Source: Planctomycetaceae bacterium (lineage in GTDB: Bacteria > Planctomycetota > Planctomycetia > Pirellulales > Pirellulaceae). From it: a stretch of 64,000 bases of DNA. Location: positions 1-64,000 of the forward strand of contig JAAYDI010000163.1 in the NCBI GenBank assembly GCA_012729315.1, in the 5' to 3' direction. This document shows positions 1 through 5,248 of the stretch, in pieces. The translations under genes were made by a program, and so were the position numbers. Numbering within the stretch: position 1 is the stretch's first letter; each line of letters opens with the position of its first letter. Under the pieces are notes generated by a model. The model saw nothing but the letters and a program-made list of their open reading frames with translations, did not search any database and had not been told where the DNA came from.

Positions 1-711
1 TCCGCAGCGGCGCGGCTGGTGGCCGAGGATCAGCACCGACGTGAGCGCGAGCGACTCGCCCGCCGCGCGGAGGTCCGCCAGCAGATCAAGCAGCGGGCGG
101 TTCTGATGCAGCAAGTGGAAGACCTGGCTGCCCAATTGCGGCTGTTGGACGCGCGGGCCGATGGACTGGCTGCCGAGCACCAGGCAGCGTGCGAGCCCCT
201 GCAGGAGGCCCTGGCGAGTGCCACAGGCAGCAAGCGCTCCGCCCTGCTCGAAAAGTTGACGGCTGCCAACATTGAGCTGGAGCAGGGTCTTGCGGTGGTC
301 GAGCGTATGCGAGGTCCGCTGACCAAGCAGCACCGCGAGACACGCAGCTCGGCCGCCGCGTTGCCCACCGAGAACCGGCTGGCCGGTGCCGACCTGGCAT
401 CGCCCAAATTGCTGGCCGAAAAGTTCGCGGCCGAGTGCCGCCGACAGGCTGCCCAGATGCGAGTTGATCGGGCGGCCGAGATGCTCAGGCGGTTTGTTCC
501 CGAGCTGGAGACGATGCGGTCGGCGCGCGTTCCCGAGAGTTCGTTCGGCTGGGTGAAAAGCGACAGCCGCCGCGCGCTCGACTTTGAGGCGGTCCACAGG
601 CTGCAGCTGCGTGCGGACCGGTGGCAGTGCGAGCTGACCCACGCCAGCCAAGAGGCACACGCGGCCCAAGAGGCGCTGGCCGATCTGGCCGCCCAGATGC
701 GCACAGAGTAG
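1..711 (+). CDS. Coiled-coil protein of unknown function, 5' end outside window
   Basis: The reading frame is open from the first base (codons S-A-A-A-R-L precede a GTG at 19), so the gene most likely begins upstream and the GTG at 19 is only a possible internal start. The visible product is about 236 residues, almost entirely charged and helical, rich in Arg, Glu, Gln and Ala with heptad-like spacing, which suggests a long coiled coil. There is no signal peptide, membrane segment or catalytic motif in the visible part. I do not recognise the family. A role in a filament or as a scaffold would be a guess. Confidence 0.6.
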   Translation, partial: SAAARLVAEDQHRRERERLARRAEVRQQIKQRAVLMQQVEDLAAQLRLLDARADGLAAEHQAACEPLQEALASATGSKRSALLEKLTAANIELEQGLAVVERMRGPLTKQHRETRSSAAALPTENRLAGADLASPKLLAEKFAAECRRQAAQMRVDRAAEMLRRFVPELETMRSARVPESSFGWVKSDSRRALDFEAVHRLQLRADRWQCELTHASQEAHAAQEALADLAAQMRTE

Positions 712-840: not shown

Positions 841-1113
841 ATGATCCGAGCCTCTCAACGCCGGTGCATCTGCTGCGGCCGACCGGCCACGTGGACGGCT
901 CTTGACCGGCCAGGGCGCGATGGCAGCCGGCGGGAGATCCCGTTGTGCCGCCGGTGTCCATCGCCGCTGGAAATCGACGCCAAATCGCGCGAGATTAGCG
1001 ATGCCTGGACTGACCCGCAGCGGCAGTGTCGATACTACCGCTGTCTCACCCATCAGCTCGATAACCTACTGGCAGTGACGGTGCCGGAGTGCAGCATTGT
1101 GGGCGAGGACTGA
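841..1113 (+). CDS. Small Cys-rich (zinc-ribbon-like) hypothetical protein
   Basis: This 90-residue protein has two Cys pairs about 24 residues apart (C-x-C-C near residues 9-12 and C-x2-C near 36-39) and two more Cys near residues 63-69, a pattern that fits a small zinc-binding ribbon. It is basic and has no signal peptide. No Shine-Dalgarno is visible; TACAAT six bases upstream suggests a leaderless transcript. It ends about six bases before the repeat array and on the same strand, so one transcript could run into the array. I do not recognise a named family. It could also be a chance ORF, but the Cys pairing argues for a real gene. Confidence 0.5.
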   Translation: MIRASQRRCICCGRPATWTALDRPGRDGSRREIPLCRRCPSPLEIDAKSREISDAWTDPQRQCRYYRCLTHQLDNLLAVTVPECSIVGED

Positions 1114-1118
1114 GGCCC

Positions 1119-1940
1119 ACCCCCGCGCCCGCGAGCCGCCGCGAGTGTCGCTTCAATCCCGCAGAATTCTGCGGAAGTGAACCCCTACACTCGCGCCCGC
1201 GCGCGAGCTGCGACATAAGCAATGACAAGTCTGTCGTTGCTTATACTCCCCTGCACTCGCGCCCGCGCGCGAGCTGCGACTCGGAAACTCCCACCCCAGG
1301 GTTGGAAGTTTTCTTCCCTGCACTCGTGCACGCGCGAGTTGCCACGGGTGGATTGGCAATTTTGCCTATCCTCCTTCGTACCCCCACACGCGCGTGCGCG
1401 CGAGTTGCCACCGGAAAACCGGTCACACGATGTTACCAGTTTAGAACCCCCACACGCGCGCACGCGCGAGTTGCCACGGCGCATGTATTTCCGTCATTTG
1501 GCGGATTTTCACCCCCGCACGCGCGCACGCGCGAGTTGCCACAACTGTGGATCTATCATTTGATAGATCCTCCTTCGTCCCCGCACGCGCGCACGCGCGA
1601 GTTGCCACGCCAAAGGAAAATGAGCCAAATGGCCAATTTATGTCCCCGCACGCGCGCACGCGCGAGTTGCCACGCGGGAAAAAAGGTACGCAGAATTCTG
1701 CGGCCCTTAATGTCCCTCCCGCCCGCCGCGCGAGGGGCGCCGAGGCTGGCAAATGGAAACCGCGGTTTCGTTTTGATGTCCCTCCCACACGCGCGAGGTG
1801 CGCCAACCACAATCTGTTAATCCAAAATTGGATGAACAAAATGCTGCATCCCGCACGCGCGCGCGAGCTGCAACACCAGTTTGCAGATTGTAACATTATG
1901 TTACAAACTGCATGTTCCCTCCCCCACGCGCGCGACACAC
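1119..1940. repeat. Array of 13 GC-rich repeats separating 12 different palindromic spacers, period about 66 bp
   Basis: The constant repeat is about 29-31 bp. It begins CCCCGCACGCGCG and ends CACGCGCGAGTTGCCAC on the plus strand. Copies begin near 1119 (degenerate), 1183, 1248, 1315, 1381, 1448, 1512, 1579, 1644, 1714 (degenerate), 1779 (degenerate), 1849 and 1916 (degenerate). The spacers are about 35 bp, AT-richer and unlike each other. Each has a central inverted repeat, centred near 1166, 1229, 1298, 1360, 1429, 1497, 1559, 1628, 1695, 1762, 1826 and 1897. Examples are the arms GGATCTATCA/TGATAGATCC at 1549-1570, ATAAGCAATGACA/TGTCGTTGCTTAT at 1215-1244 and TGTTAATCCAA/TTGGATGAACA at 1815-1838. 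The repeat core CGCGCG-CA-CGCGCG is itself a dyad. There is no cas gene nearby, and CRISPR spacers are not expected to be palindromic. No open frame is conserved through the array. The function is unknown. Confidence 0.95.
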
Positions 1941-2145: not shown

Positions 2146-2221
2146 CTTGGGGTCAGGTGGCGGAACCGGATCGGCCGTTTTCGCAATGCTGAGGTCGAGG
2201 GTTCGAGCCCCTTCCGCTCCA
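2146..2221 (+). pseudogene. tRNA-like remnant (intact T-arm and 3' acceptor strand)
   Basis: Bases 2197-2221 read as a T-stem, the T-loop TTCGAGC and a 3' acceptor strand ending CCGCTCCA. Upstream, TGGC/GCCG can form a four-base D-stem around a loop containing GG. The 5' acceptor strand (GGGGT..) pairs with only about five of seven bases, two of them G-T, and no proper five-base anticodon stem forms. It reads as a decayed tRNA or an integration scar that kept the 3' half, not a working tRNA. Confidence 0.4.
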
Positions 2222-2378
2222 CTCCTCACAAGTCACGCCGAGGTAACAACTTATCAGAGGTTTCAGGCGGGTCTCGCCGAGAAACCTTCGCTGCACGTAC
2301 ATCTTACTTGTTAGCCGTGCTGAAAGCGCGGACCGGTTAGCGCAACAGCCGCGCCCCGTGAGGTTGCACGCTCGGAAA

Positions 2379-3931: not shown

Positions 3932-5248
3932 GTGGCGCACGTAGCATCGAAGAAACTGCCTTACAAGGTCAAGGACCTTTCGCTGGCCGATTGGGGACGG
4001 CGGGAGATAATGTTGGCCGAAAACGAGATGCCCGGCCTCATGGCGCTGCGCGAGAAGCACGGTTCCAGCAAGCCGCTCCGGGGTGCGCGGGTTGCCGGTT
4101 GTCTGCACATGACGGTCGAGACAGCCGTCCTGATTGAGACGCTGGTCCAGCTCGGTGCGGAGGTCCAGTGGAGCAGCTGCAATATCTTCTCGACGCAGGA
4201 CCATGCGGCGGCGGCGATCGCGGCCAGTGGTGTTCCGGTCTATGCGTGGAAGGGCATGACAACGGACGATTTCGACTGGTGCATCGAGCAGACGCTGTAT
4301 TTTCCGGATGGCAAACCGCTCAACCTGATCGTGGACGATGGGGGGGACTTGACGGCCATGGTCCACTACAAGTTCCCCGAACTGCTGGCCGACATCCGCG
4401 GGCTGTCGGAAGAGACCACGACGGGGGTCAATCGTCTGTACCAGATGCACGAACGTGGTGAGCTGAAGGTGCCGGCGATCAACGTGAACAACTCGGTGAC
4501 CAAGAGCAAGTTCGACAATCTGTACGGCTGTCGCGAGTCGTTGGCGGACGGGCTGAAGCGGGCGACCGACGTGATGATCGCCGGCAAGGTAGCGGTGGTC
4601 TGTGGCTACGGCGACGTGGGCAAAGGCTGCGCGCACTCGCTCCAGCGCTACGGCGCTCGCGTGATTGTCACCGAGATCGACCCCATCAACGCGCTGCAGG
4701 CGATGATGGAGGGCTTTCAGGTCACGACGCTCGAGGAAGTGGCGTCGATCGGGAACCTCTTCGTGACGGCCACGGGCAACTGCAATGTGATCCGGGGAGA
4801 GCACATGGAGCGCATGCCCAACGATGCGATCGTCTGCAACATCGGCCATTTCGACCTGGAGATCGACGTCGCCTGGTTAATGTCCCGGACGGACATCCGG
4901 CGGCAGGAGATCAAGCCGCAGGTCGATCGGTTCACCTTTCCCGACGGGCACTCGATCATCCTGCTGGCCGAAGGGCGACTCGTCAACCTGGGCTGCGCTT
5001 CGGGGCATCCGTCGTTCGTCATGTCGAGTTCCTTCACCAACCAGGTGCTGGCCCAGATTGCGTTGTGGACGCATCCTGAGCAGTATCCGATCGGGGTGCA
5101 CCTGCTGCCAAAACAGCTGGACGAAGAGGTGGCCCGGCTGCATCTGGGGAAGCTGGGTGGCAAGCTGACCCGGCTCACTTCGGAGCAGGCGGCCTATCTG
5201 GGGGTGCCGGTTGAAGGCCCGTACAAGCCCGACTTCTATCGGTATTGA
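3932..5248 (+). CDS. ahcY: Adenosylhomocysteinase
   Basis: This enzyme splits S-adenosylhomocysteine into adenosine and homocysteine, clearing the by-product of methylation. The product is 438 residues, a normal length. Visible motifs are [12 protein letters not shown] near the N-terminus, [13 protein letters not shown], the NAD-binding glycine-rich [31 protein letters not shown] and the C-terminal KPDFYRY that closes the active site across the tetramer. The start is a GTG at 3932 preceded by GAGGAG at good spacing. A promoter and structured leader lie upstream, and a GGCCGGCC hairpin follows the stop. Confidence 0.97.

Follow-up and report, generated by a model that had tools for sequence, protein, structure and literature searches.

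The window, by which we mean the whole stretch of 64,000 nucleotides that was analysed, comes from a Planctomycetaceae bacterium whose draft genome assembly consists of 213 contigs and is 96.65% complete; the elements described here are cut by contig ends. The first gene of the contig is an ORF of 230 amino acids with a coiled-coil look (19..711, plus strand), which has no confident family assignment, and scans against pfam, padloc and phrogs returned nothing convincing. A second ORF of 90 amino acids with CxxC pairs (841..1113, plus strand) codes for a putative small zinc-binding protein and lies directly 5' of an array of 13 GC-rich repeats (approximately 25-37 bp) and 12 AT-richer spacers, each with a dyad, to which no strand was assigned (1117 to approximately 1937). 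The number of repeats and spacers and the start-to-start period of 64-71 bp agree with what had been claimed from the sequence alone. Paralogs of the CxxC ORF are also encoded ahead of arrays on two other contigs of the same genome, C97 and C195. In other genomes (L060 and L062), relatives of the ORF are present and the array is absent, and on contig C70 (L030:228-1895) a paralog is directly followed by a tyrosine recombinase (integrase), again with no array.

Approximately 220 bp past the array, a partial tRNA- or tmRNA-like gene, namely its 3' half with the T arm and the acceptor, can be read from the sequence (2157..2224, plus strand). It gives a weak tmRNA match of 15.6 bits with an E value of 2.6e-4 for 501 bases, which is far under the gathering score, and ARAGORN called no tRNA or tmRNA gene at 2157..2224. 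Such half genes were read at the edges of C154, the contig of the window, and of C97 and C195, the latter two of which end at split tRNA-like genes. We propose that the half gene at 2157..2224 is a probable attachment site and element edge, and the window array appears to sit at one edge of a phage-like element that has integrated. In L010 (560-800) and L009 (740-980), a tRNA-5'-half-like sequence, GTTAGAGCATCGGATTCCACC, is located in the element past the array and lies opposite another, chromosomal tRNA, whose 5' half is cut at the anticodon loop, which suggests insertion into anticodon loops.

With its direct repeats and unique spacers of constant length, the window array is built like a CRISPR array. 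Its repeat copies are not near-identical as in CRISPR arrays but 60-100% identical, with values of 60-90% for many pairs, and they fall into several subtypes, so that a repeat of about 30 bp, as had been described, is present but is less uniform than this description implied. The best-preserved copy, CCTTCGTCCCCGCACGCGCGCACGCGCGAGTTGCCAC (1572..1608), is closest to the repeat of a phage-borne, Cas12u3-linked array in L072/L078. The earlier statement that the array matches no CRISPR pattern has to be qualified in view of this likeness. The repeat of the host, GCTTCAATGGGGCCGCAGCTGATCAGCTGCGGAAC, differs from the repeat of the window array, and only spacer 1 (GCTTCAATCCCGCAGAATTCTGCGGAAG) partly resembles it; approximately 36 copies of the host repeat form a CRISPR array adjoining Cas1 on contig C4 (L215:1-2600). 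An Rfam search of the array yielded no known RNA.

Palindromes in the spacers

Spacer 1 contains the dyad TTCAATCCCGCAGAATTCTGCGGAAGTGAA (1152..1181), an open frame of which reads ASIPQNSAEVN and can be compared with the linker ELPQNFAEV of ParB-like proteins. The dyads of spacers 2, 3 and 4 are ATAAGCAATGACAAGTCTGTCGTTGCTTAT (1215..1244), AAACTCCCACCCCAGGGTTGGAAGTTT (1285..1311) and GGTGGATTGGCAATTTTGCCTATCCTCC (1347..1374), respectively, and that of spacer 5, AAACCGGTCACACGATGTTACCAGTTT (1416..1442), reads ENRSHDVTSLE on the plus strand. Further dyads are present in spacer 7 (GGATCTATCATTTGATAGATCC, 1549..1570), spacer 10 (CAAATGGAAACCGCGGTTTCGTTTTG, 1750..1775) and spacer 12 (TGCAGATTGTAACATTATGTTACAAACTGCA, 1882..1912). 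The dyad of spacer 9, AAGGTACGCAGAATTCTGCGGCCCTT (1683..1708, plus strand), has GKKGTQNSAALN as one open frame and homologs in the arrays on C11 and C195, and for the dyad of spacer 11, TGTTAATCCAAAATTGGATGAACA (1815..1838), a homolog with a paired change was found on C11. The dyads of spacers 6 (1490..1505) and 8 (1618..1639) are weak and, taken alone, not significant. All of the perfect or near-perfect dyads that had been quoted (1159-1174, 1215-1244, 1549-1570, 1756-1769 and 1882-1912) were found in place.

Each spacer was compared with 500 dinucleotide-preserving shuffles, a comparison named beforehand as one that could refute the claim. The 12 window spacers lie well above their shuffles, with a mean dyad z of 4.8 and a Fisher p of 3e-15. 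Ten of the 12 spacers have p values between 0.002 and 0.014 on their own; since the values for spacers 6 and 8 are approximately 0.12, the wording that all twelve spacers are dyadic is slightly too strong. Automatic, untrimmed slices of 36 nt gave a Fisher p of 3.6e-15, and a score of at least 8 was reached by 9 of 11 slices compared to 2.2% of random slices of the window. Thirteen ordinary CRISPR arrays with the same GCGAGNTGC repeat motif served as a control and contributed 79 spacers. The mean z of these spacers is 0.12, whereas the 34 spacers of the dyad arrays have a mean z of 4.6 (Mann-Whitney p 6e-15). Paired changes were seen between related spacers, namely A:T to G:C between C154 and C11 and C:G to A:T between L079 and L161. 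The shuffle statistics, the occurrence in several elements and these paired changes back the claim that the shape of the dyad is kept while its sequence varies.

The spacers had also been said to share no common sequence, which is not entirely so. CGCAGAATTCTGCGG is contained in spacers 1 and 9 and has near-identical forms in the arrays on C11 and C195. A second case is the spacer-5 core, whose dyad family recurs reverse-complemented in spacer 4 of C97, in L213 and in the linker of the L230-L233 genes. Integron attC sites, terminators and REP elements were considered and set aside: an attC-like core and cassettes are absent, and the stems are not followed by T-tracts. The palindrome chains that our detector reported in L186 and L159 turned out to be ordinary intergenic hairpins, a warning that a chain of palindromes alone proves little.

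Related arrays and spacer matches to phage genes

Three further dyad arrays are encoded in the same genome, on C97, C195 and C11. In the C11 element, a ParB-like C terminus lies approximately 0.4 kb from the array; this is a reading of the sequence for which phrogs gives no supporting match. When 397 genomes of the order were scored, with two candidates per genome, the array was found in the source genome only. A search of the viral sequences in IMG/VR with a single repeat motif revealed a second array family on three related phage or satellite contigs (L063, L079 and L161), in which nearly all spacers are palindromic. The flanks of these three arrays are conserved and spacers have been gained and lost between the relatives. 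The comparison of spacers among relatives, which had been suggested as a check, thus uncovered both turnover between related elements and the paired changes described above. Head genes, a terminase and a primase-like gene were recognised in the 13 kb of L161 that could be seen, and no tail genes; this predicted gene set resembles that of small phages or capsid-forming satellites. Among the palindromes of L161, there is also a solitary type I-E-like CRISPR repeat, GATCACCCCGCGCATGCGGGAACA (4211-4236), possibly a solitary repeat unit. Another prophage record, L213, has a palindrome-rich intergenic stretch with a spacing of approximately 55-66 bp after a small zinc-finger-like ORF (913-1420). The spacer-5 dyad is present in L213 in two versions, 65 bp apart, among other palindromes.

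Several spacers match genes of phages and related elements. A search with the core of window spacer 5 led to L213 and from there to L230-L233, where the spacer-5 dyad is part of a coding sequence and falls within the linker TRSHDVTTLDDLGI. In the encoded protein, an LGI..SSRW helix-turn-helix-like motif precedes a Dam methyltransferase domain. Spacer 4 of C97 matches the L230 gene at 28 of 29 nt, with TRSHDVTTLEE in frame against TRSHDVTTLDD; this match was found partly via the spacer core, and the search pattern fixed 17 of the 29 positions. Spacer 4 of L063 agrees with L161 at all of 22 nt, a stretch that includes 7 nt of the coding flank, and L161 contains linker fragments of the ParB-like (LPQNFAEV) type. 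Spacer 7 of L063 matches the ParBc-like gene of phage phiAH14a (18 of 19 nt; linker dyad AACGGTGGAAAATTTTCCACCATT), a gene that was reached by protein homology and independently of the spacer. Spacer 1 of the window matches the ParB-like gene of L235 at 20 of 22 nt. In L216, the linker ACTTCCGCAAAATTTTGCGGAAGT of the ParB-like gene, which has a weak ParB_N match and a match to phrog_12047 (E 1.6e-33), codes for LPQNFAEV, and in the phage contig L219 (3640-3860) several more palindromes of the QNFA/VQDFA type are clustered around a fragment of a ParB-like gene.

The spacers with matches in mobile elements include spacer 4 of C97 (L230) and window spacer 5 (L230-L233 and L213), and most window spacers are unmatched. 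Within the own genome, spacers matched in arrays only, and a search of 0.83 Mb of further contigs gave no additional matches. An IMG/VR scan with the core of spacer 9 found nothing, BLAST searches of phages with arrays or spacers returned either no matches or matches at chance level, and when relatives of the ParB-like genes were sought in plasmids and phages, phiAH14a alone was obtained. The new result is that for some spacers the probable source of the palindromes could be traced to phage ParB-like and LGI-HTH/Dam genes. For the other spacers the link to phage genes is weak, consisting of the dyad form and of short peptides in one of six frames that may correspond to such linkers.

Dyads in the linkers of phage regulators

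In both ParB-like and LGI-HTH/Dam proteins, the linker dyad precedes the helix-turn-helix. LGI-HTH homologs were compared from phages and from genomes belonging to the order. Of these 15 homologs, 8 have a dyad with a score of at least 8 at the same codons, with unrelated sequences, and the remaining 7 have none; the background rate of dyads is 1.05 per kb. Randomisation of the linkers with synonymous codons gave a Fisher p of 1.3e-8, and the genes separated clearly into two groups, one with a dyad and one without. In many such genes, the linker dyad is stronger than the encoded amino acids alone would demand. It is present in a single copy within the phage sequence examined for phiAH14a, L230, L231 and L216. 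The ParBc-like gene of phiAH14a lies between the Cro-side genes and the gene for the replication protein. The lambda origin inside gene O is a classical intragenic site and, by analogy, such a site would not be odd at the position of the phiAH14a gene.

Linker length is mostly equal in homologs with and without a dyad, indicating that the dyads were not inserted but arose by substitution. This bears on the idea that the palindromes are small mobile elements which insert into coding linkers and into the array. Rickettsia palindromic elements are palindromes inside coding regions, as the dyads are here, and the presence of the same dyad families in genes and in the arrays of different elements would fit such an origin. 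However, the dyad sequences are wholly different, with one copy per phage sequence examined, and the mostly unchanged linker length together with the unrelated sequences speaks against an inserted repeat family. This strained reading is highly improbable.

Alternatively, the hairpin could act as RNA: the mRNA of the ParB-like gene would fold at the linker and be bound by a regulator, and a multi-hairpin RNA made from the array would titrate this regulator. In accordance with this idea, RNA folding of the spacers gives z values of -1.7 to -3.9 across the arrays, terminator-like sequences follow the arrays in C11 and L063, and the variants among close linker homologs (L238/L240/L242 and L234/L235) mostly keep the pairing via G-U on the coding strand. 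On the other hand, both orientations are used within one dyad family, many dyads have no loop or a loop of AATT, and the 48 mismatches in the spacer dyads (5 G-T compared to 8 A-C) show no excess of G-U on either strand. The hairpin-RNA array suggested in the sequence-only reading remains a rival on the basis of the former observations and loses ground through the orientations and mismatches; we regard it as unlikely.

Proposed recognition sites or guides

We tentatively favour, at somewhat less than an even chance, the explanation that the array has gathered recognition dyads out of genes belonging to other phages and employs them as DNA sites. The linker dyad would be a putative cis-acting DNA site, that is an operator, a centromere or an origin, bound by the protein of its own gene, and its sequence would differ from phage to phage as the specificity of the protein changes; the linker dyads in excess of codon choice lend this putative binding indirect support. 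The element would gather approximately 12 such sites, each roughly centred in a spacer of 36 bp, with the GC-rich repeats, probably derived from a phage-borne CRISPR-like array, setting the spacing. Such a collection would either sequester ParB-like proteins made by rival phages, as a titration device, or enable recognition, replication, partition or packaging of the element together with helper phages. The dyads are roughly central in the spacers and are used in both orientations, which speaks for a dimer-bound DNA site and less for an RNA hairpin or for a guide target chosen arbitrarily. As the dyad is the unit that is kept, we prefer a collection of sites from other phages, which would act in relations or conflicts between phages or between satellites and helpers. 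Several of the palindromes, in the window array and in the second array family, match single-copy dyads in phage ParB-like genes, and the element thus appears to carry the recognition sites of rivals or helpers. Of the three possibilities offered by the sequence-only reading, a set of different operators comes closest: the matched spacers correspond to single-copy dyads in phage ParB-like/HTH genes, the putative sites of the encoded proteins. Several points count against captured recognition sites. Nucleotide matches exist for some of the spacers only, one copy per site seems a poor sponge, the likeness of the repeats to Cas12u3 repeats is left unexplained, 7 of the 15 homologs have no linker dyad, and the ParB-like reading on C11 has no phrogs match behind it.

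The main rival, which we consider rather unlikely, is a CRISPR-like guide array without an effector of its own, whose guides would serve, in trans, a Cas12u-type protein encoded by another phage or by a host and would all be directed at the linker dyads in ParB-like genes of competing phages, blocking or cutting there; the spacers would then be palindromic only because the target is. Mini-CRISPR arrays directed against other viruses are known from phages (PMC6858448, PMC11656645). The repeat-spacer layout, the constant spacer size, the use of both orientations, the gene flank included in two spacers and the turnover of spacers between related elements all agree with guides. In addition, the repeat at 1572 scores 22.8 against the L078 repeat, compared to a mean of 4.5 and a maximum of 16.5 for random GC-matched repeats with the same anchor, and the phage with the L078 repeat encodes Cas12u3 next to such an array; since this score is the best of several comparisons, the likeness to Cas12u repeats is moderate evidence. 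Against guides, the Cas12f1/TnpB-type domain (PF07282) was not found in the 96.65% complete genome, the repeats are degenerate and have lost the 3' handle in many copies, and the spacers tend to self-fold as RNA (z -2.65), an unfavourable property in a guide. Moreover, ordinary V-U arrays (L078, L087) have non-palindromic spacers, and a guide array gives no account of why every target is a dyad.

Returning to captured recognition sites, a broader claim, which is possible but which we would sooner doubt than accept, is that temperate phages and satellites archive the ParB-like recognition dyads of other phages, a memory of rivals or helpers that would consist of putative protein-binding DNA sites and not of guide RNAs, the original sites being hidden in linker codons. 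If this is right, the array is one whose spacers are kept for their shape and derive from one kind of site, the single-copy dyad in phage ParB-like genes; a class of cis-acting sites would be hidden in the coding linkers of phage regulators, and mobile elements would have a means of assembling sites from numerous other phages. This raises the directly testable question of whether the ParB-like proteins of phages bind the dyad in their own linker and whether an array of foreign dyads alters the fate of the phages concerned.

Among known systems, the V-U3 arrays with Cas12u3 (L072/L078, L087) share the period of approximately 66 bp, a similar GC-rich repeat and the location in phage genomes. They differ in that a TnpB-like effector is encoded alongside, the repeats are near-identical and the spacers are not palindromic, whereas the window array has no effector, degenerate repeats and dyad spacers only. 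In a phage-borne Cas12u2/TnpB locus (L093:1294-1500 and 1534-2814), one spacer, ATCTGACCGAGCCGTAAGATGTTGATCGCAGCATTC, is almost the same as the 3' end of the effector gene beside it, which suggests targeting of its own or of a rival effector. RNA anti-CRISPRs (Racrs, PMC10651486) are likewise CRISPR-repeat-like sequences in phages without cas genes, but they are solitary mimics of CRISPR repeats, whereas the window array has 13 copies and the host's own repeat on C4 is different; this reading was set aside, as there is no mimicry of the host repeat.

The TIGR-Tas systems resemble the window array in their tandem units with variable but consistently palindromic sequences and in their occurrence in phages and other mobile elements (PMC12045711). 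Under this reading, the array would be a guide-RNA array of variable stem-loops for a Tas (Nop-domain) protein. TIGR units have two variable spacers of 8-12 nt flanked by box C/D motifs and a Tas protein, whereas the window array has a conserved repeat between its palindromes and no such protein was found: the IS110-type domain PF02371 is absent from the genome, and no Tas gene was seen near the arrays, whose elements are cut by contig ends. We give this reading hardly any probability. The TIGR and mobile-palindrome readings were weighed and set aside on the grounds of the conserved repeat between the palindromes and of the equal linker lengths, respectively. The closest parallels to captured recognition sites are the ParB-parS centromeres and the lambda origin in gene O, in which a DNA-binding protein has its palindromic site within the gene that encodes it or within a neighbour of that gene, where a linker region tolerates it. 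By analogy, the linker dyads described here would be putative sites of the same kind, but they vary from one phage to another, and a single array brings together many different ones.
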